Position numbers and translations under genes: made by a program
The notes under the pieces: model-generated
Told to the model about the DNA's origin: nothing
What the model saw: the letters and a program-made list of their open reading frames with translations, nothing else
Databases searched by the model: none
In this document: one piece after another, positions 16,704 to 56,830 of the stretch
Numbering within the stretch: position 1 is the stretch's first letter
How the letters are laid out: the number at the start of each line of letters is the position of its first letter
Source: Syntrophorhabdaceae bacterium
Lineage (GTDB): Bacteria; Desulfobacterota; Syntrophorhabdia; Syntrophorhabdales; Syntrophorhabdaceae
NCBI GenBank assembly: GCA_017992765.1
Contig: JAGOOA010000011.1
Coordinates: 1 to 63,532, forward strand
Direction of reading: 5' to 3'
DNA: 63,532 nucleotides

Positions 16704-17455
16704 TGAATGATTTTGTACTGAAAACAAGCGACCTCAATCTTTACTACGGTACATTTCACGCGTTGAAGAACATCAACTTCAACGTCCATAAGAACTCGAT
16801 CACGGCGCTGATCGGCCCTTCCGGGTGCGGAAAATCCACCCTTTTGCGCTGTTTTAACCGGATGAACGATCTCATCGACGACATCCGGATATCGGGCGAC
16901 ATCTTCGTGCATGATCAAAGGATCGAGGACGTTGATATTATCGAGCTCCGCAAGAAGGTGGGCATGGTGTTTCAAAGGCCCAACCCTTTCCCCTTCACCG
17001 TCTACGGGAACATGGTCTACGGGCTGAAGATACACGGCCTGGGAAACAAGAAGAAGAAAAGGAATATGGCGGAAAACTGCCTCCGGGCCGTCGGCCTCTG
17101 GGAGGAGCTGAAAGATAAGCTCTCCACGCCTGCGCTCGATCTCTCCGAGGAGATAAAGCAAAGGCTCTGCATTGCGCGCCTTTTAACCGTCGAGCCCGAG
17201 ATCATCCTTCTCGATGAACCCTGCTCTGCGCTGGACCCCATCGCCACCATGAGGGTCGAAGAGCTTATGATGGAGCTGAAACAAAAGTACACGATACTGA
17301 TCGTAACTCACAACATGCAGCAGGCCGCAAGGGTATCAGACTATACCGGCTTCATGCTCCTCGGCGACCTCGTGGAGTTCGGCGAAACCTCCCAGATCTT
17401 TACATCGCCCTCGGATGAAAGGACCGAAGGATACATAACGGGACGCTTCGGATAA
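16703..17455 (+). CDS. PstB3: Pst-type ATPase with degenerate ABC signature
   Basis: 250 residues, PstB family. Intact: A-loop LNLYYG, Walker [10 protein letters not shown] (38-46), Q-loop VFQRPNPFP with Gln91, Walker B IILLDEP with Glu172, D-loop SALDP and H-loop VTHN with His203. Altered: the signature reads LSEEIKQRL where PstB1 has LSGGQQQRL, so the GGQ that contacts the gamma-phosphate is EEI (149-151). The losses are the exact complement of those in PstB2. A homodimer would have two defective sites, whereas PstB2/PstB3 would have one good and one defective site. The start codon overlaps the pstB2 stop (TAATG). Last gene of the operon, followed by a repeat hairpin. Confidence 0.9.
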
Positions 17456-17463
17456 ATCCGCAG

Positions 17464-17560
17464 TATTATAGTATATAGTATATCGTATATAGTATATCGT
17501 GAAAAACCTTAGTATGTTTGTGTAGTCCACGATATACGATATACGAACTGCGATATACTG
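17464..17560. repeat. Heptad AT-rich hairpin repeat, family A (full copy)
   Basis: GTATATAGTATATCG heptads, a loop with ACCTTAG, TATGTTTG and TGTAGTCCAC, then CGATATACGATATACGAACT and GCGATATAC as the right arm. The loop and right arm match the copy at 1377-1502. It starts within 10 bp of the pstB3 stop and lies in the convergent gap before the CoA-transferase gene. Confidence 0.85.
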
Positions 17561-17591
17561 ATTTTAAAGAACCAGGATCCAAGGGAAAAAA

Positions 17592-17606
17592 GGGGGGGTG
17601 GGGGGG
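17592..17606 (+). other. G7-T-G7 homopolymer tract
   Basis: Seven G, one T and seven G, followed by TTGGTTG, in the convergent gap between pstB3 and the CoA-transferase gene. The tract could form a G-quadruplex on the plus strand and is an obvious slippage site, but it lies in no recognised gene. The rest of the 191-bp gap is the family A hairpin. Confidence 0.75.
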
Positions 17607-17646
17607 TTGGTTGATAAAAACCCTTGAACCCTGGCAAGAATGTCAT

Positions 17647-34212: not shown

Positions 34213-35049
34213 CTATAAACTATGCGCTAAAAAAACTTCTCCCAGGTCTTTCGCATGGGCCAAGGCCTTCTCTGCATCGTTTTCGCTTTTAAAAATACCA
34301 AACACGGAGGAACCGCTTCCGCTCATCAAGGAACCAACCGCTCCACTTTGTTCTAATATCCTTTTTATGGTCTTAATTTGTGGGCACATTATGGTTCCGA
34401 CTCTTTCCAGATCATTCTCTAAGATATTCGCTACATCATATAAGGTCTTGAATTTTCCCAACAATCTAATATCATTTTCGGTATTTGTCAACACGATTTT
34501 TAGGCGGCCGTAGACCTCTTTCGTCGGTATTTCCACGCCCGGATACACGACAAGGTACCATATGCGGGGCAGCTCTACGGGGGAGATGATGTCGCCTATT
34601 CCGCGCATCACGCAGGGCCTGCCATAGAGAAAGAGCGGAACGTCGGCCCCAACCGTCCTGCCGATATCAAATATCTCGTCCTCCCTGACATCAAGCCCCC
34701 ATATCCGGACGAGTTCCCTGAGCACCGTCGCAGCGTTGCTGCTTGGCCCCCCGAGACCGCTTCCGATGGGTATGTTCTTTTCTACGAAGATCTCTATCCC
34801 CTGTCTGACGCTGTGGCGCTCCCGCAAAAGTTCGACTGCCCTGAATATTGTATTGCCCCTGCCTTCGGGCAAGATGCCCTTATCGTCCCTTACGGCTATT
34901 CCGCCGTTCCTTGCTTCTCTTATATGTATTACGTCATAGATAGATATGGGGTCAACAATACTTTCAATATTATGGTAACCGTCCGGTCTTTTCGAAAGCA
35001 CTTTGAGGTAAAGATTAACCTTGGCAGGAGATAGGGCCGTATGTTCCAT
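34213..35049 (-). CDS. ispE: 4-diphosphocytidyl-2-C-methyl-D-erythritol kinase
   Basis: 278 residues, GHMP kinase. LSPAKVNLYLKVLSKRPDGYH at the N terminus, ATP loop PIGSGLGGPSSNAA (about 96-109) and C-terminal LMSGSGSSVFGIF. It phosphorylates CDP-methylerythritol in the MEP isoprenoid pathway. It is followed by spoVG and preceded by the RNase gene with a 9-bp gap, an operon conserved in deltaproteobacteria. Confidence 0.95.
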   Translation of the reverse strand: MEHTALSPAKVNLYLKVLSKRPDGYHNIESIVDPISIYDVIHIREARNGGIAVRDDKGILPEGRGNTIFRAVELLRERHSVRQGIEIFVEKNIPIGSGLGGPSSNAATVLRELVRIWGLDVREDEIFDIGRTVGADVPLFLYGRPCVMRGIGDIISPVELPRIWYLVVYPGVEIPTKEVYGRLKIVLTNTENDIRLLGKFKTLYDVANILENDLERVGTIMCPQIKTIKRILEQSGAVGSLMSGSGSSVFGIFKSENDAEKALAHAKDLGEVFLAHSL

Positions 35050-35058
35050 ATCGAATGG

Positions 35059-36540
35059 CTAATAGATCCCTTCCACATGAAATTTATCGATACTGAAGCC
35101 GGCGTTTGCGATAAGGTTTATCTTTGTTTTATGCGTATTTTCGATGAACTCGATCGAGCTTTTTTCTTCTTCATAAAGCAGGCTCGCCACCTCCGGGGCG
35201 ACATAGACGTTAAATATTCTGCCTTCGCCCTTTTTGCATGAACTTCTGAGCTCTCGCAAAACCTCATAGCATACGGTATGCCTTGACTTGATGTAGCCCG
35301 AGCCGTCGCAGTTCGGGCATGTCTCCGTGAGGAGGTTGGTGATGTTGTGCCGCGTTCTCTTTCTCGTGATCTGCACGAGGCCTATCTCGCTGATGGGATA
35401 GACAAAGGTCTTTATCCTGTCCTTTTTCAGCACTTCGACGAGGGCCTGGAAAACGGTCTCCCTCGATTCCTTCCTCTCCATATCGATAAAATCCACGATA
35501 ATAATGCCGCCGATGTTCCTCAGCCGTATCTGGTAGGCGATCTCTTTCACCGCTTCGAGGTTTGTCCGGAGTATGGTGTCTTCAAGGTCCTTTTTTCCGA
35601 GGTACCTCCCTGTATTGACGTCGATAACCGTGAGCGCCTCGGTATAATCAAGGACGATATAGCCTCCCGATTTTAACCAGATCTTTTTCTGCAGCAGCTT
35701 CGCGATCTCCATCTCGATGCCGAACACCTCAAATATGGGGTCTTTTTCTTCGAAGTATTCAACATCGCACCTTTCTTCAGGGAGATATTCCTTGATGAAG
35801 ACCTCGACGTTCTTATATACAAAGGGGTCGTCAACGATGATCTTCTTCAGGTTATGGGAATGGAGGTCCCTGATAACCCTGAAGATGATGCCAAGGTCCT
35901 GGTGGAGTATCGATGGCGCCCTGACGTCTTTTGCCTTTTCCTGGATGCTTTCCCATATCCTCCGCAGAAAGCTCAGGTCGCTCTGGATCTCGTCGCTCGA
36001 CTTGCCCTCGGATGCGGTCCGCGCGATCAGCCCATAGCCCTTCGGGCATATCTCCTTCAGCAGCGCTGCAAGCCGTTTCCGCTCGTCTTCCTGTTCGATC
36101 CGGCGCGATACCCCGATGTGGTCGGTTGCGGGCATCAGCACCAGGAGCCTTCCGGGCAGCGTTATCTTTGACGTGACCCGCGTTCCTTTCTGACCTATCG
36201 GTTCCCTCGAAACCTGGACGATCAGCTCCTGCCCGTCTTCCAGAACGCCCTCGATCCTCTCCCCCAGCTCCACGGGAAATCCCGAATCTTCGTACTCTTC
36301 GTACATCAGCCTGTCAAGGATGATGTCCCCGACATACAGGAAGGCGGACTTTTCAAGACCGATGTCAATAAACGCCGCATCCATTCCGGGAACGATCCTC
36401 ACCACCTTGCCTTTATAGATGCTCCCGACCATGCTGTTGTCGTTCTTCTTCTCGATAAAAAACTCAACAAGAACGCCGTTTTCCAGAAATGCGATCCTCT
36501 TCTCGTTAAACGTCACATTTATTATTAGTTCAGATGCCAT
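35059..36540 (-). CDS. rng: Ribonuclease E/G family protein
   Basis: 493 residues, RNase G-like size. S1 domain about 35-120 (GSIYKGKVVRIVPGMDAAFIDIG, cut here, then FLYVGD). The catalytic DNase I-like domain carries Mg ligands in TVIDVNTGRYLG and IIIVDFIDM. The Zn-link CPNCDGSGYI lies near 415, and a C-terminal small domain follows without the long RNase E scaffold. It processes rRNA and decays mRNA. Its end is 9 bp from ispE, and its start overlaps the radical SAM gene by 11 bp, a pairing typical of the family. Confidence 0.93.
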   Translation of the reverse strand: MASELIINVTFNEKRIAFLENGVLVEFFIEKKNDNSMVGSIYKGKVVRIVPGMDAAFIDIGLEKSAFLYVGDIILDRLMYEEYEDSGFPVELGERIEGVLEDGQELIVQVSREPIGQKGTRVTSKITLPGRLLVLMPATDHIGVSRRIEQEDERKRLAALLKEICPKGYGLIARTASEGKSSDEIQSDLSFLRRIWESIQEKAKDVRAPSILHQDLGIIFRVIRDLHSHNLKKIIVDDPFVYKNVEVFIKEYLPEERCDVEYFEEKDPIFEVFGIEMEIAKLLQKKIWLKSGGYIVLDYTEALTVIDVNTGRYLGKKDLEDTILRTNLEAVKEIAYQIRLRNIGGIIIVDFIDMERKESRETVFQALVEVLKKDRIKTFVYPISEIGLVQITRKRTRHNITNLLTETCPNCDGSGYIKSRHTVCYEVLRELRSSCKKGEGRIFNVYVAPEVASLLYEEEKSSIEFIENTHKTKINLIANAGFSIDKFHVEGIY

Positions 36541-38848
36541 GCACTCTCCCGGTTGGTACCTTTACTATCCTTATAAACTGTCCCTGCAGCCAAAGCTGCT
36601 TGATGCCCTTGCCCTGCCAGAGAAAAAAAGACCTTTTCCCATATTCTCTCCATTTCAAGGCTTCTCTGTTAGTATACCCTTCTGCCACTAAAATGTAAGA
36701 AAAATCTTTTGTCCTGTCATCCAGGCTTCCTTCAACATAACCGTAGATCTTCATCCCTTCCGGCAGCAGCCTGTTCATTCTTCCCATGATCGCTTCATCG
36801 ATCCCGGCGCCGCCCTCCGTTTCTATCTCAATAAATTCCCAGGTGCTTTCAATGCCGACCGGCAGGGCTTCCGTTAATCTGATCCTCGGGAGAGGGTGGT
36901 ATCTGCCGTGCATCCTGATCGCGACCCCCGACGCCCTGAAGGCGCGCAAGAGGATATTCATCGCGTCGATGTGCCCGATATAGCGGGAATCCCCATACTT
37001 CCCGTAGCGGAAGGTGAACTTCTTGGTATTTCGTATATCGTATATCGTAGATCGCGGTTCGGCCTTCGGCGTTCGGAGATCTTCACACTCTTCTCCTCTC
37101 ACCTTCTGCTTCTCTGCTCTTCTCACCCTCTGCTCTTCTGATCTTATGTCCGTAACGCATTCCATCCCGCACCCGGCGCAGCCGTTGTAGCAATCGACGC
37201 TTCTCTCGCTCTCAAGGGCCTTCTCATATTCATCCTTCAGAAAACCGCCGTTTATCCCCGTATCGATAATATCCCACGGCAATGACGCATCCCGCTCTCT
37301 CCCGCCGGTGTAATCCGTCATCTGCAGCCCGTTATCGCCAAACCATCTTTCATAAATGTCGAAATGAAAATATTCACGCCACGCTTCAAGTTTGGCCCCT
37401 TCCCGGAAGAGATATTCGAAAAGCCCGGAGAGTTTCCCGTCCCCCCTCGACAACACCCCCTCAATGATGCTGAGCTTAATGTCCCTGTATTTTATCCTCG
37501 CCCCCTTTCCTTTGAGCAGCCCCTTAAGAAGCTTCATCTTCTCATACAAGACATGCTCGTCGTCCATAGGCAGCCACTGGAAAGGGGTATGCGGCTTCGG
37601 AACAAAGGGAGAAACCGAAAGGTTCACTTCGATCCCCTCCTTCTTGAATGGGAGAAGGATCTCAGCGACATTTCTGAGATCTTCTTCTTTTTCCCATGGG
37701 AAGCCGAGCATAAGATAAAGTTTTATCCTCTTCCAGCCATATCTCTTGAGAAGGGGCAGCTGGTTGAGGAGCATTTCTATATCGATGTTTTTGTTAAGCC
37801 TGCAGCGCATTTCCGCGGTAGCCGCCTCGAGGGCAAAGGTAAACCCCGTTCGCGCCACGCTGCCTATCACGCCGATCTCCTGTTCGCCTATGCTGCCGAT
37901 CTTTAATGACGGCAACGAGATCGATATCCCCCTGTGCCTGTCCCTTACGTGCTCCATCACATCAAAAAGGCCGCTGTAATCTCCCGAGCTGAGTGAAAGA
38001 AGCGATACCTCTTCGTAGCCTGTCCTGCCTATCCCTTCGTCAATTATCCTGCACACATTTCCAACGGACCTCTCCCTGTAAGGCCTGTACCCGAACCCCG
38101 CAAGGCAGAACCTGCAGCCGTTTCCGCAGCCCCTTGATATCTCGACATTGAGCCTGTTATGGACGCTTCCGACAACGGGGATCGGGGGGCTTACGGGGTG
38201 GTAAGCGCCATCAAGGTCTTTCACGTAGAGGCGCTTTACTCTTTCCTTCGGGAACAACGGCGAATAGACGCCCTCAAGCTTAGATAGCTCTTGGATCAGA
38301 TGTTCCCTTTTCATACCCTTTAAAGACCTTGTCACATCAAGAATGTCCGGCAGGACTTCGTCTGCCTCCCCTGCAACAACGAGGTCAAAAAACCTCTCGT
38401 AAGGTTTCGGGTTCAGCATCAGGGGGCCGCCGCCGATGACGACCGGCTCCTGCTCAGCCCTTTCGTCCGACCTGATCGTTATGCCGCCAAGATCCAGCAT
38501 GTTGAGCACGTTCGTCATATTCAGCTCATAGGTCAACGAAAAACCGACAAGGTCCATCTTGCAAAGAGGCGTCTTTGATTCCAGGGTACGAAGATACAGC
38601 CTGTTTTCCCTGATGTGCCTGTCCATATCGCTCCATGGCGCAAAGCACCTTTCGCACCACACGCCCCGGACGTTGTTCGCCAGCTCATAGAGCAGAAAAT
38701 GGCCGTAATAGGACATCCCGATCTCGTAGACATCGGGGTAGCAGAGGGCAAAGCGAACGCTTGCTTCGCTTCTGTCCTTCATGACCCTGCCCGGCTCATT
38801 CCCCGTGTACCGTGCAGGCCTCATTATCGTTTGCGGTATGCTCAGCAT
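36530..38848 (-). CDS. TIGR03960-type radical SAM protein fused to DUF2344 domain
   Basis: 772 residues. The N-terminal B12-binding-like region (about 1-190) is followed by a radical SAM core with EISRGCGNGCRFCLAGFGYR (CxxxCxxC near 240) and a C-terminal DUF2344/TIGR03936 domain (about 608-772, FRYGKYGDSRYIGHIDAMN). Between them, residues about 568-607 are encoded by repeat-type DNA (37026-37146). The frame is intact. The pairing of this protein with RNase E/G is conserved in anaerobes, and a role in tRNA/rRNA or RNase-linked modification has been assumed; the reaction is not known to me. Confidence 0.9.
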   Translation of the reverse strand: MLSIPQTIMRPARYTGNEPGRVMKDRSEASVRFALCYPDVYEIGMSYYGHFLLYELANNVRGVWCERCFAPWSDMDRHIRENRLYLRTLESKTPLCKMDLVGFSLTYELNMTNVLNMLDLGGITIRSDERAEQEPVVIGGGPLMLNPKPYERFFDLVVAGEADEVLPDILDVTRSLKGMKREHLIQELSKLEGVYSPLFPKERVKRLYVKDLDGAYHPVSPPIPVVGSVHNRLNVEISRGCGNGCRFCLAGFGYRPYRERSVGNVCRIIDEGIGRTGYEEVSLLSLSSGDYSGLFDVMEHVRDRHRGISISLPSLKIGSIGEQEIGVIGSVARTGFTFALEAATAEMRCRLNKNIDIEMLLNQLPLLKRYGWKRIKLYLMLGFPWEKEEDLRNVAEILLPFKKEGIEVNLSVSPFVPKPHTPFQWLPMDDEHVLYEKMKLLKGLLKGKGARIKYRDIKLSIIEGVLSRGDGKLSGLFEYLFREGAKLEAWREYFHFDIYERWFGDNGLQMTDYTGGRERDASLPWDIIDTGINGGFLKDEYEKALESERSVDCYNGCAGCGMECVTDIRSEEQRVRRAEKQKVRGEECEDLRTPKAEPRSTIYDIRNTKKFTFRYGKYGDSRYIGHIDAMNILLRAFRASGVAIRMHGRYHPLPRIRLTEALPVGIESTWEFIEIETEGGAGIDEAIMGRMNRLLPEGMKIYGYVEGSLDDRTKDFSYILVAEGYTNREALKWREYGKRSFFLWQGKGIKQLWLQGQFIRIVKVPTGRVHGI
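37026..37146. repeat. Heptad repeat tract inside the radical SAM gene
   Basis: TCGTATATCGTATATCGTAG (family A), then a CGGTTCGGCCTTCGGCGTTC-type run and a CTCTTCT/CTGCTCT/CACCCTC heptad run lie within an open reading frame. They encode a charged linker whose residues include IYDIRNTK, from the family A words, and EEQRVRRAEKQKVRGEE, from the purine-rich run. Outside genes the same words occur only in intergenic gaps. Confidence 0.85.
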
Positions 38849-38858
38849 CTTAGATCCA

Positions 38859-38896
38859 TAGTATTTCGTATATAGTATATCGTATGTCCTATATCG
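38859..38896. repeat. Partial heptad repeat, family A
   Basis: ATAGTATTTCGTATATAG and ATATCGTATGTCCTATATCG words just upstream of the radical SAM gene start. No complementary right arm is seen, so it is a half element. Confidence 0.7.
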
Positions 38897-41650: not shown

Positions 41651-41758
41651 ATAGTATATCGTAGTTCGTATATCGTATATCGAAAAACCCGTGCTGGATA
41701 CTCGATACTCGTCGCTGGATATTTGTCTCTCACTATCCACTATATACTATATACTATC
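41651..41758. repeat. Heptad AT-rich hairpin repeat, family A, with GATACTC heptads
   Basis: AGTATATCGTAGTTCGTATA and TCGTATATCG words, then GGATACTCGATACTCG (GATACTC heptads), then ACTATATACTATATACTATC. The right end supplies the TAG stop codon of the DUF72 gene (41754-41756), so the element abuts and perhaps trimmed that gene. It fills the gap between the ROK and DUF72 genes. Confidence 0.8.
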
Positions 41759-44367: not shown

Positions 44368-44581
44368 TTTTAAGCTATCAGCATTCAGCTATCAGCTATC
44401 AGCCAGGAACTATGAACTGTATTTCTCGCCGAACGCCGAACGCATCACGACGAACGGTTTTTTGTAGTCCCTGCGATATACGAACTACGATATACAATCC
44501 CGATGAGCCATGCGCTTTACGCTATGCCGCAGTCCTCTCACCCTCCGCTCTTAGCCCTCAGCCCTCCGCTCTTAGCCGCCT
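44368..44581. repeat. Mosaic of heptad repeats between trmI and tonB
   Basis: This 224-bp gap without a gene is made of successive tracts: AGCTATC/AGCATTC heptads (44377-44402), CGCCGAACGCCGAACGC (about 44427-44443), TGTAGTCC with GCGATATACGAACTACGATA (family A, 44463-44497) and CCGCTCT/TAGCCCT/CAGCCCT heptads (44535-44578). No promoter or gene is seen in it. Confidence 0.8.
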
Positions 44582-45340
44582 TTACTCCAGCCTGTACTCA
44601 ACAGGCAGGACCACGGCCATCCGGTAAGGTATCCTTTGGGAGAACCTGGTCTTCAAGACCGCTTCTTTTGCGTTCTCATCGAGGGCCCTGATGCCGGAGC
44701 TGTTGACGATCTTCAGCGCTTCTACCGTGCCGTTTTCCAGGACCACAAATGACAGGAGCACCTTTCCTTCCCACCCCATCCTTCTGGCGCGCTCCGGGTA
44801 TGTAATATTCCTCATGATGTTCTCCCTGATGAAGGCAAAGCTCCGTTCCGCCGCGCCCCCGCGTCCGTAGTCAAGGGTTCCCCCCCACCCTCCTCCCACA
44901 GCGCCAGGCATCCCTTTTTCAGCCGAATCGCTTCCCTGCTTCCCTGTCCCGGCCCCAGGGGTTCCAATGTTTCCGCGCACAACCACCTGCCCCTCCGGGT
45001 CGGAATAATGACCTTCCGCTTTGTGTGTCTCAATCATTTTCGATGTTTGGACGCCAGCTTTCACTGCCGGCGGCTCTGTTTCTCCACGCCCAGGTTCCAC
45101 CGTTCTTCCTCGTCCCTCGTCCCTCGTCCCTCGTCCCTCGGTCCGCCCTCTCCCGCGCCCTTCCTTTACGCCCGCCGCATCACCGCCGTAGGCCCCGGTC
45201 CTGCCGCTCTTTTCAAGGGTAAAATCGATCAGCATATTTTTTGGCTTGCTGTATTTTTCAACGGGCAGCATGAAAAAGGCGGCGACAATAAGGATGTGCA
45301 CAGCTGCGGAGAAGGTAAAGCCTGTACAATGCTCTCTCAT
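44582..45340 (-). CDS. TonB-like energy transducer
   Basis: 252 residues. N-terminal membrane anchor about 8-24 (FSAAVHILIVAAFFMLP), a Gly/Arg/Glu-rich periplasmic linker (about 45-165) and a C-terminal TonB domain (about 168-252: YPERARRMGWEGKVLLSF, LDENAKEAVLK, LPVEYRLE). The linker is unusually Gly-rich instead of Pro-rich and includes a run coded by (CCTCGTC)4. With ExbB/ExbD it passes proton-motive force to an outer-membrane receptor; no receptor gene is nearby. The start overlaps the exbD stop by 4 bp. Confidence 0.85.
   Translation of the reverse strand: MREHCTGFTFSAAVHILIVAAFFMLPVEKYSKPKNMLIDFTLEKSGRTGAYGGDAAGVKEGRGRGRTEGRGTRDEGRGRTVEPGRGETEPPAVKAGVQTSKMIETHKAEGHYSDPEGQVVVRGNIGTPGAGTGKQGSDSAEKGMPGAVGGGWGGTLDYGRGGAAERSFAFIRENIMRNITYPERARRMGWEGKVLLSFVVLENGTVEALKIVNSSGIRALDENAKEAVLKTRFSQRIPYRMAVVLPVEYRLE
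45108..45140. repeat. (CCTCGTC)4 heptanucleotide tract within the tonB-like gene
   Basis: Four perfect CCTCGTC units (45108-45135) plus a partial fifth, coding on the minus strand for EGRGTRDEGRGR. Unit length 7 is not a multiple of 3, so gain or loss of one unit shifts the frame and removes the TonB C-terminal domain. Confidence 0.85.
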
Positions 45341-46614: not shown

Positions 46615-47259
46615 GTGGACAAAAAGAGGCCGGCATACCGGCCATTCTCAAACCTTCCCGAATTTATAAAAAAGACCATGATCCCTGTCGCCGAAGGCCA
46701 GGCGGATGGCAGCATGACGTTCTCCGAGGCAATGAAGGATGTTAAGGCCATTGACCGGCAGAAGAAAATGCGCATTGAAAAGCGGCAGCGCAAACAGGCA
46801 AAACCCCGCATCGAAGAGGATGCGAACAAGGTCCTCGAAAAGGCTGTCAACGGGGCTCAAGCCTTCAACGTCTCCAACATGCCTGAATATATGGAAGGCC
46901 ACGTTGAAGGCTTGAGCCCCGTTGTCCTTGAGAAGCTCCGCAGCGGTGAGTTTTCCGTACAAAAGGTTCTCGACCTCCACGGCTGCGCGATCGACGAGGC
47001 AAGGCAGCGCTTCGAGTCGTTTATCAGGGAGATAATCCGTTCCGGCCACAACTGCGTGAAGGTCGTCCACGGCCGGGGGCTGAAATCAAAGAATGCACCG
47101 CTGCTAAAGGAAAATCTCAAGAAATGGATCGTGAAGGCAATGCACAGAAAATGGGTGGCCGCCTTTTCCAGCGCGACAATGCCCGACGGCGGCCCCGGCG
47201 CCACGTATATCCTTATCAGGAAAAGACCGGAAAAAAAGAAGATACATATCATCGGGTGA
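46615..47259 (+). CDS. Smr domain protein
   Basis: 214 residues, start GTG at 46615. A basic helical N-terminal region (about 35-80, KKMRIEKRQRKQAKPR) is followed by a Smr domain about 118-205 with VLDLHGCAIDEARQRFESF, VKVVHGRGLKSK and LLKENLKKWI. Smr domains (MutS2, YdaL-type) are endonuclease or ribosome-collision nuclease modules. The motif LDLHG is intact. Followed by a composite repeat. Confidence 0.9.
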   Translation: MDKKRPAYRPFSNLPEFIKKTMIPVAEGQADGSMTFSEAMKDVKAIDRQKKMRIEKRQRKQAKPRIEEDANKVLEKAVNGAQAFNVSNMPEYMEGHVEGLSPVVLEKLRSGEFSVQKVLDLHGCAIDEARQRFESFIREIIRSGHNCVKVVHGRGLKSKNAPLLKENLKKWIVKAMHRKWVAAFSSATMPDGGPGATYILIRKRPEKKKIHIIG

Positions 47260-47262
47260 TAA

Positions 47263-47420
47263 AAGCAGCTATCAGCTAACAGCACACAGCTATCAGCTAA
47301 CAGCAACAACCAATAAAGCCTGTCTATTTTGTCTATCAGGCCTGTTTGGTTTACGCCGTTTTAACGCTGAACAGATTTTGCTGAAAGCTGACTGCTGATA
47401 GCTGATAGCTGAAAGCTCTC
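47263..47420 (-). repeat. Composite dispersed repeat, family B (copy 2)
   Basis: Read on the minus strand: AGCTATCAGCTATCAGCAGT, CAGCAAAATCTGTTCA, GCGTTAAAACGG, AAACAGGCCTGATAGAC, AAAATAGACAGGC, ATTGGTT, then GCTGTTAGCTGATAGCTG heptads. Word order matches 29865-30007 except for the GTTCAAC run inserted there. The two ends are inverted to each other, so the whole gap between the Smr gene and proC can fold as one large hairpin. Confidence 0.8.
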
Positions 47421-47478
47421 AGTAGAATTAGCTTTAAAATAATTCTCCTATTTGTTATAAGAAACAAGGAGGTCGGGG

Positions 47479-56691: not shown

Positions 56692-56830
56692 TTCCCTCTC
56701 CCCTCGCGGGAAAGCCACGAAAGTCCCCTCTCCCCTCGCGGGAAAGCCACGAAAGTCCCCTCTCCCCTCGCGGGAAAGCCACGAAAGTCCCCTCTCCCCT
56801 CGCGGGAGAGGGCCAGGGAGAGGGGGCATG
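56692..56830. repeat. 32-bp tandem repeat array, GC-rich hairpin units
   Basis: Units start at 56692, 56724, 56756 and 56788 (the last partial), each with CCCTCTCCCCTCGCGGGAAA followed by GCCACGAAAGT. The last unit continues into GGGAGAGGGCCAGGGAGAGG, which closes a hairpin with CCCTCTCCC. A further single unit-like CCCTCTCCCCTCGCGAAAGA is at about 56632-56651. The CCCTCTCCC...GGGAGAGGG palindrome is a well known type of proteobacterial intergenic repeat. The rest of the 418-bp gap shows no gene. Confidence 0.88.

Follow-up and report, generated by a model that had tools for sequence, protein, structure and literature searches.

How does repeat DNA of the kind found between genes come to be read in frame inside a conserved protein-coding gene? 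This question is raised by one gene in the window, the whole stretch of 63,532 nucleotides analysed here, which encodes a B12-binding-type radical SAM protein (TIGR03960) fused to TIGR03936/DUF2344. We found only general radical SAM papers in the literature on this TIGR03960-DUF2344 protein family. The gene and its linker are organised as follows:

36530 to 38848, minus strand: host gene, 772 aa in a single open frame
37019 to 37156, minus strand: interdomain linker of 46 codons, residues 565-610, VTDIRSEEQRVRRAEKQKVRGEECEDLRTPKAEPRSTIYDIRNTKK
37023 to 37080, minus strand: heptad array in one 7-bp register, with GATATAC words (37026-37054) and CCGAACG words (37055-37080)
37088 to 37153, minus strand: octad array of AGAAGAGC/AGAAGGTG words, purine-rich on the coding strand

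Conserved domains and a repeat-derived linker

Profile matches placed TIGR03960 at residues 6-565 of the host protein and TIGR03936 at residues 611-712 (611-726 for TIGR03936/DUF2344), both above their curated cut-offs (541.3 vs 462.3 bits and 74.2 vs 71.9 bits, respectively), and the protein also matched the Pfam families Radical_SAM_N2, Radical_SAM and DUF2344. The radical SAM CxxxCxxC cysteines (C241, C245 and C248) were invariant among 20 sequences, as was a second set of cysteines (C553, C557, C560 and C564) directly ahead of the linker. Both domains are under purifying selection, with dN/dS values in four species pairs of 0.09-0.14 for the radical SAM part and 0.11-0.29 for the DUF2344 part. 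The linker gave values of 0.56-2.1 compared to 0.09-0.29 in the domains, although the linker values come from few, poorly alignable codons, and residues 565-605 are predicted to be disordered (AlphaFold2 pLDDT < 50).

The first-pass annotation had reported that intergenic-type repeat DNA lies in frame within this gene and encodes a charged linker between the radical SAM and DUF2344 domains. We were able to confirm both statements: the linker, with its many K, E and R residues, lies between the TIGR03960 and TIGR03936 matches within the one open frame, and nearly all of it is repeat DNA common to the intergenic regions of its own genome.

On the coding strand the linker consists of octads (AGAAGAGC AGAGGGTG AGAAGAGC AGAGAAGC AGAAGGTG and so on), followed by a short spacer and then by heptads in one register: TCCGAAC GCCGAAG GCCGAAC CGCGATC TACGATA TACGATA TACGAAA. 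What had been taken for pyrimidine-rich heptads are in fact octads, as the array at 37088-37153 scored 14.2 at period 8, 21.0 at period 16 and 21.9 at period 24 and had no period-7 signal; intergenic copies of it were found in the window's genome at C68:197-253 and C34:111640. Head-to-tail 7-bp units occurred above chance at 37023-37080, where the period-7 score was 27.8, compared to a maximum of 5.9 in the remaining segments of the host gene. Peptide-preserving recodings (n = 5000), made with synonymous codons weighted by the genome's own codon usage, reached a maximum of 18.4. As none of them attained the observed score, a peptide-driven periodicity can be rejected: the 7-bp periodicity belongs to the DNA and is not explained by the peptide. 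It should be noted that several words share one register within one array, rather than there being one fixed word per family as for the Geobacter, TAACTGA and GGGAATC families.

Repeat words in the genome

The linker stretch matched 62 other places in its own 2.42-Mb genome (G000), in the form of short word runs of ~14-60 nt. Within a 400-kb sample which did not include the host gene there were 40 matches at E ≤ 0.01, of which just 3 fell within called genes. When 48 other 138-bp segments of the host gene were compared to the same sample, 41 had zero matches, and 6 of the 7 with matches overlapped the linker.

We then counted arrays in 463 kb (the window plus the 400-kb sample), with genes called by a simple script whose starts are approximate. 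This gave 101 period-7 arrays, compared to 0-4 for each of the control periods 4, 5, 8, 10, 11 and 13. The earlier description of such repeats as normally found only between genes holds for nearly all of them, with 93 of the 101 being intergenic, but not for the 4 at gene edges and the 4 inside genes; at a coding fraction of 0.85, heptad arrays are ~68 times denser between genes than within them. Intergenic composites repeat the word order of the linker, for example CCGAACG words followed by a short spacer and CGATCTACGATATACGAAATACG. Examples of intergenic arrays in the window, listed without strand, are:

38859 to 38894: heptad array immediately upstream of the host gene, with GTATATC words, the same as in the linker
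41651 to 41687: heptad array of GTATATC words
44472 to 44575: composite of GATATAC words and CTCTTAGCC words, with CCGAACG words just upstream

Approximately 41% (231/558) of the strand-frames of intergenic arrays were free of stops, and an array whose length fits the frame can therefore often be read through. Strong self-complementarity was found in 28% of array-bearing intergenic regions vs 9% of array-free ones.

Heptad arrays were often seen as complementary pairs around a spacer, resembling long imperfect hairpins (e.g. 17455-17646 and 47259-47478 of the window). We also observed a perfect 3.6-copy tandem repeat with a 32-bp unit (CCCTCTCCCCTCGCGGGAAAGCCACGAAAGTC) at 56694-56807 of the window, and CCCTCTCCCGCGAGGGGAGAGGG sequences were found in gaps of the related genome G004.

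Arrays within other genes

At least 3 of the 4 in-gene heptad arrays in the 463 kb sit in linkers. As well as the host gene these include the following, where the names used, like Lnt-like and Gmk-like below, were read from translations and not from family searches:

44582 to 45271, minus strand: TonB-like gene, the second case in the window, whose linker contains a heptad array
45106 to 45153, minus strand: GGGACGA heptad array of the TonB-like gene, coding for GRGRTEGRGTRDEGRGR
L089:15128-15922: ferredoxin-like fusion gene, whose linker contains a heptad array at L089:15374-15439

Orthologues of the TonB-like gene in G002 and G004 share the GGGACGA array and have, within that linker, a second heptad array of GAGAGCT type which is absent from the window gene. 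On the coding strand, the linker of the ferredoxin-like fusion contains GAGCGGA heptads and then CCGAACG heptads, and this order of purine-rich words followed by CCGAACG words is common to it and the host gene linker. Further genes, e.g. Lnt- and Gmk-like, had arrays at their N- or C-terminus. A further array, at L075:884-913, was called in-gene; it probably lies upstream of the true start and was left out of the linker cases.

The linker across relatives

We compared the host gene to its homologues, which were present in all 59 relatives searched; the assemblies are MAG-type drafts. One frame spans both domains wherever the region is complete, including in other families of the phylum. The comparison of linkers among relatives which the first-pass annotation had called for agreed with a repeat origin: across 50 genomes the linker was hypervariable, the same linker was not seen in distant homologues, and 16 of the 49 readable linkers (including that of the window) contained heptad arrays, defined by a period-7 score ≥ 14 and all with a recoding p ≤ 0.009. 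The words differ between species. Every readable linker from the window's genus (6 in all) is among these 16, and the others come from six further genera of the same family and from G059, a genome from a distant family with CCCGAAA/CTCTAAA-type words. In the genomes whose surroundings were also sampled, linkers had a mean length of 50 aa with arrays vs 33 aa without. On a tree built without the linker columns, 6 changes of array state were needed, 5 of which were forced by strongly supported branches. Judging from these sequences, the linker has acquired such repeats several times independently, the tree requiring five or more separate changes.

The linkers of relatives also matched their own genomes, at 46 places in G022, 51 in G011 and, more weakly, ~11 in G059, and the repeat-free linker of G026 had no match in its own genome below E = 0.1. 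Genomes whose linkers were heptad-positive had a higher heptad density (Mann-Whitney p = 0.012, with same-genus genomes not being independent); most repeat-bearing relatives were sampled for only 5-20 kb, and in several no array was seen there. All readable members of the genus already bear arrays and no alignable empty linker was found among the relatives, a pattern compatible with both insertion and local growth, and no insertion could be dated. An apparent frameshift in the G001 linker was given no weight, as it coincides with a run of Ns of estimated length. This assembly gap (L016, 3239-3378) lies exactly in the homologous linker and is bordered by the same 18-mer, GAGGCGGGGAAGAGGAGA, on either side.

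Closely related linkers differ by whole words. From G000 to G002 the linker gained 21 bp, equal to three heptads, and between G022 and G013, which are 94.5% identical over the aligned stretch, there was one change of −14 bp and one of +14 bp, each exactly two words long. The sequence separating these two changes is kept and its frame is switched (...SQFSIHNSQALILPKTEQSEISKK vs ...SQFASLNPAEGGTIQNSQSAIFKK). Of all the observations this speaks most clearly for an unconstrained linker peptide and a constrained frame, although it should be noted that any surviving gene has its frame kept by definition. The CCCCCGA words of the G003 linker were found nowhere else in that genome; this favours local slippage over copying in this linker, and a source in other arrays is unsupported. 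GAGCATC words gained in the G002 linker do recur elsewhere in G002, and the G000 and G006 linkers differ by modules, which together with the words shared genome-wide suggests that sequence may be exchanged between arrays.

Gaps between genes also vary among these genomes. The gap between ispE and rng is 9 bp in the window (35049-35058), short in G004 and 213 bp in the close relative G002 (L124:739-952), where two AACCAAT-type heptad arrays in inverted orientation take up the gap, and structures of ~150 bp like this one were seen at three more G002 gaps. Between the window and G002, intergenic regions are wholesale replaced and genes align end to end.

Evaluation of alternative explanations

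We considered four other explanations for the linker repeats. A discrete mobile palindromic element that entered the gene in frame, in the manner of MITEs or Rickettsia palindromic elements, could produce the ~150-bp inverted heptad structures in G002 gaps, which are present at some sites and absent at orthologous ones such as ispE-rng, and the higher frequency of self-complementarity in array-bearing intergenic regions is also in its favour. The likeness to Rickettsia elements proposed by the first-pass annotation is real with regard to in-frame presence within a conserved protein gene, but does not extend to a palindrome or a fixed unit: the linker contains no palindrome (fold z −0.16; self-complementarity 10 vs 8.5 ± 1.0 when shuffled), no second full-length copy, fixed ends or multicopy unit of ~100-150 bp was found, and the linker joins words of different period which vary between species. 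The lack of a fixed palindromic unit indicates that the linker repeat is not a Rickettsia-type element, and we consider a mobile element of this class improbable. The same fold value, showing no stable structure, argues against a regulatory site in DNA or RNA (heptads bound by a protein, an internal terminator or a recoding site) which happens to lie in a gene, as do the lack of any Rfam match to the linker and the fact that most relatives' genes have no array, or a different sequence where one is present. Such a role would have precedent, as the heptamer arrays of Geobacter metallireducens and Beggiatoaceae have been proposed to be regulatory (PMC2700814, PMC4679880), yet we find it decidedly improbable here.

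A K/E/R-rich composition is common among linkers, and the repeat could be incidental to an ordinary charged linker selected as protein. However, the periodicity was beyond all synonymous recodings, the words are shared with non-coding DNA, the linker sequence is not conserved among relatives and G022 and G013 tolerate a frame swap, which makes selection of this kind highly improbable. It had also been suggested that the repeat fused a split gene pair, the two domains being encoded separately in many genomes. This is true of Clostridia, where the genes are separate and abutting, but throughout the phylum sampled there is a single gene, which indicates that the repeat did not fuse the domains. 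Many of the fused genes in the phylum's other families are without the repeat, the lineages with the repeat branch from within those with the fused gene, and the split Clostridia pairs, in which a repeat in the gap had been proposed as a check, have none between them. We therefore reject fusion by the repeat in the sampled taxa and regard it as extremely improbable.

Proposed origin of the linker

In our judgement it is probable that the linker was built from the genome's own tandem words by slippage and copying between arrays, and that such arrays are tolerated in genes where the net change is a multiple of three. The linker is composed of the genome's short tandem repeat words, namely 7-bp words and one 8-bp family, whose arrays fill intergenic DNA and would turn over quickly. 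Whole words are gained and lost, most likely via strand slippage or recombination, and would become common to arrays across the genome most likely via template switching or gene conversion. Within coding DNA, arrays would be retained almost exclusively at the ends of genes and in disordered linkers between domains, positions at which any peptide may be acceptable if the frame is kept, whether by three heptads or by compensating changes such as −14 and +14; selection would remove frame-breaking changes. The TIGR03960-DUF2344 linker would be one such permissive site, which has acquired arrays repeatedly in the family, and the array would be ballast that the protein tolerates and that determines how long and how charged the linker is, and not a new domain. 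Location, DNA-level periodicity, common words, differences between lineages, frame-keeping indels of word size and purifying selection on both domains are directly observed, and the molecular route of copying and the functional neutrality of the array are inferred. A stronger version, in which drifting heptad and octad words are a self-spreading, transposase-free system that is copied from array to array and remodels disordered linkers in frame, including by paired compensating frame swaps, is possible but rather doubtful.

The linker provides a concrete, replicated case of non-coding repeat DNA turned protein sequence. As one homologous linker was struck several times in related genera, alignments directly show both the constraint (frame kept, any peptide) and the size of the steps (7 or 8 bp), making this a system for studying the origin and spread of heptamer arrays, a question which the papers cited here leave open. 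It is also a warning that, in genomes of this kind, charged linkers of low complexity may stem from DNA repeat dynamics and not from selected protein function.

Comparison with known repeat families

Heptanucleotide elements have been reported from Geobacter metallireducens, in which GGGACCG occurs in four tandem copies at 49 places in and between genes (PMC2700814), and G. bemidjiensis has a multicopy family which lies inside genes without frameshift (PMC2996986). The arrays described here resemble the Geobacter elements in having tandem 7-bp units at many intergenic places and inside genes, within the same broad group (former Deltaproteobacteria). However, instead of one consensus word in four copies we found drifting words, several families and joined periods of 7 and 8, and the same linker has been struck independently in several genera. 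The TAACTGA direct repeats of Beggiatoaceae, cyanobacteria and Bacteroidetes are likewise tandem heptamer arrays which are mostly intergenic, with in-gene cases mostly at the protein periphery (PMC4679880), but they have a single dominant word with stops in all frames of one strand and lie mostly just upstream of starts, whereas our arrays contain many words and occur in interdomain linkers. The G-rich heptamer repeats of Xanthomonas and Nostoc, a single G-quadruplex-forming word (PMC4692102), share the 7-bp unit and the mostly non-coding location, but the linker words are not G-tract repeats. Rickettsia palindromic elements, palindromic units of ~150 bp with a conserved peptide (PMC10969869), are similar in that an intergenic-type repeat is read in frame in conserved genes and tolerated by the protein; here there is no palindrome, no unit and no conserved peptide. 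The linker arrays are a variant of the reported heptamer elements, from which they differ in their mixed, drifting words, in the repeated striking of one linker and in their compensating frame changes.
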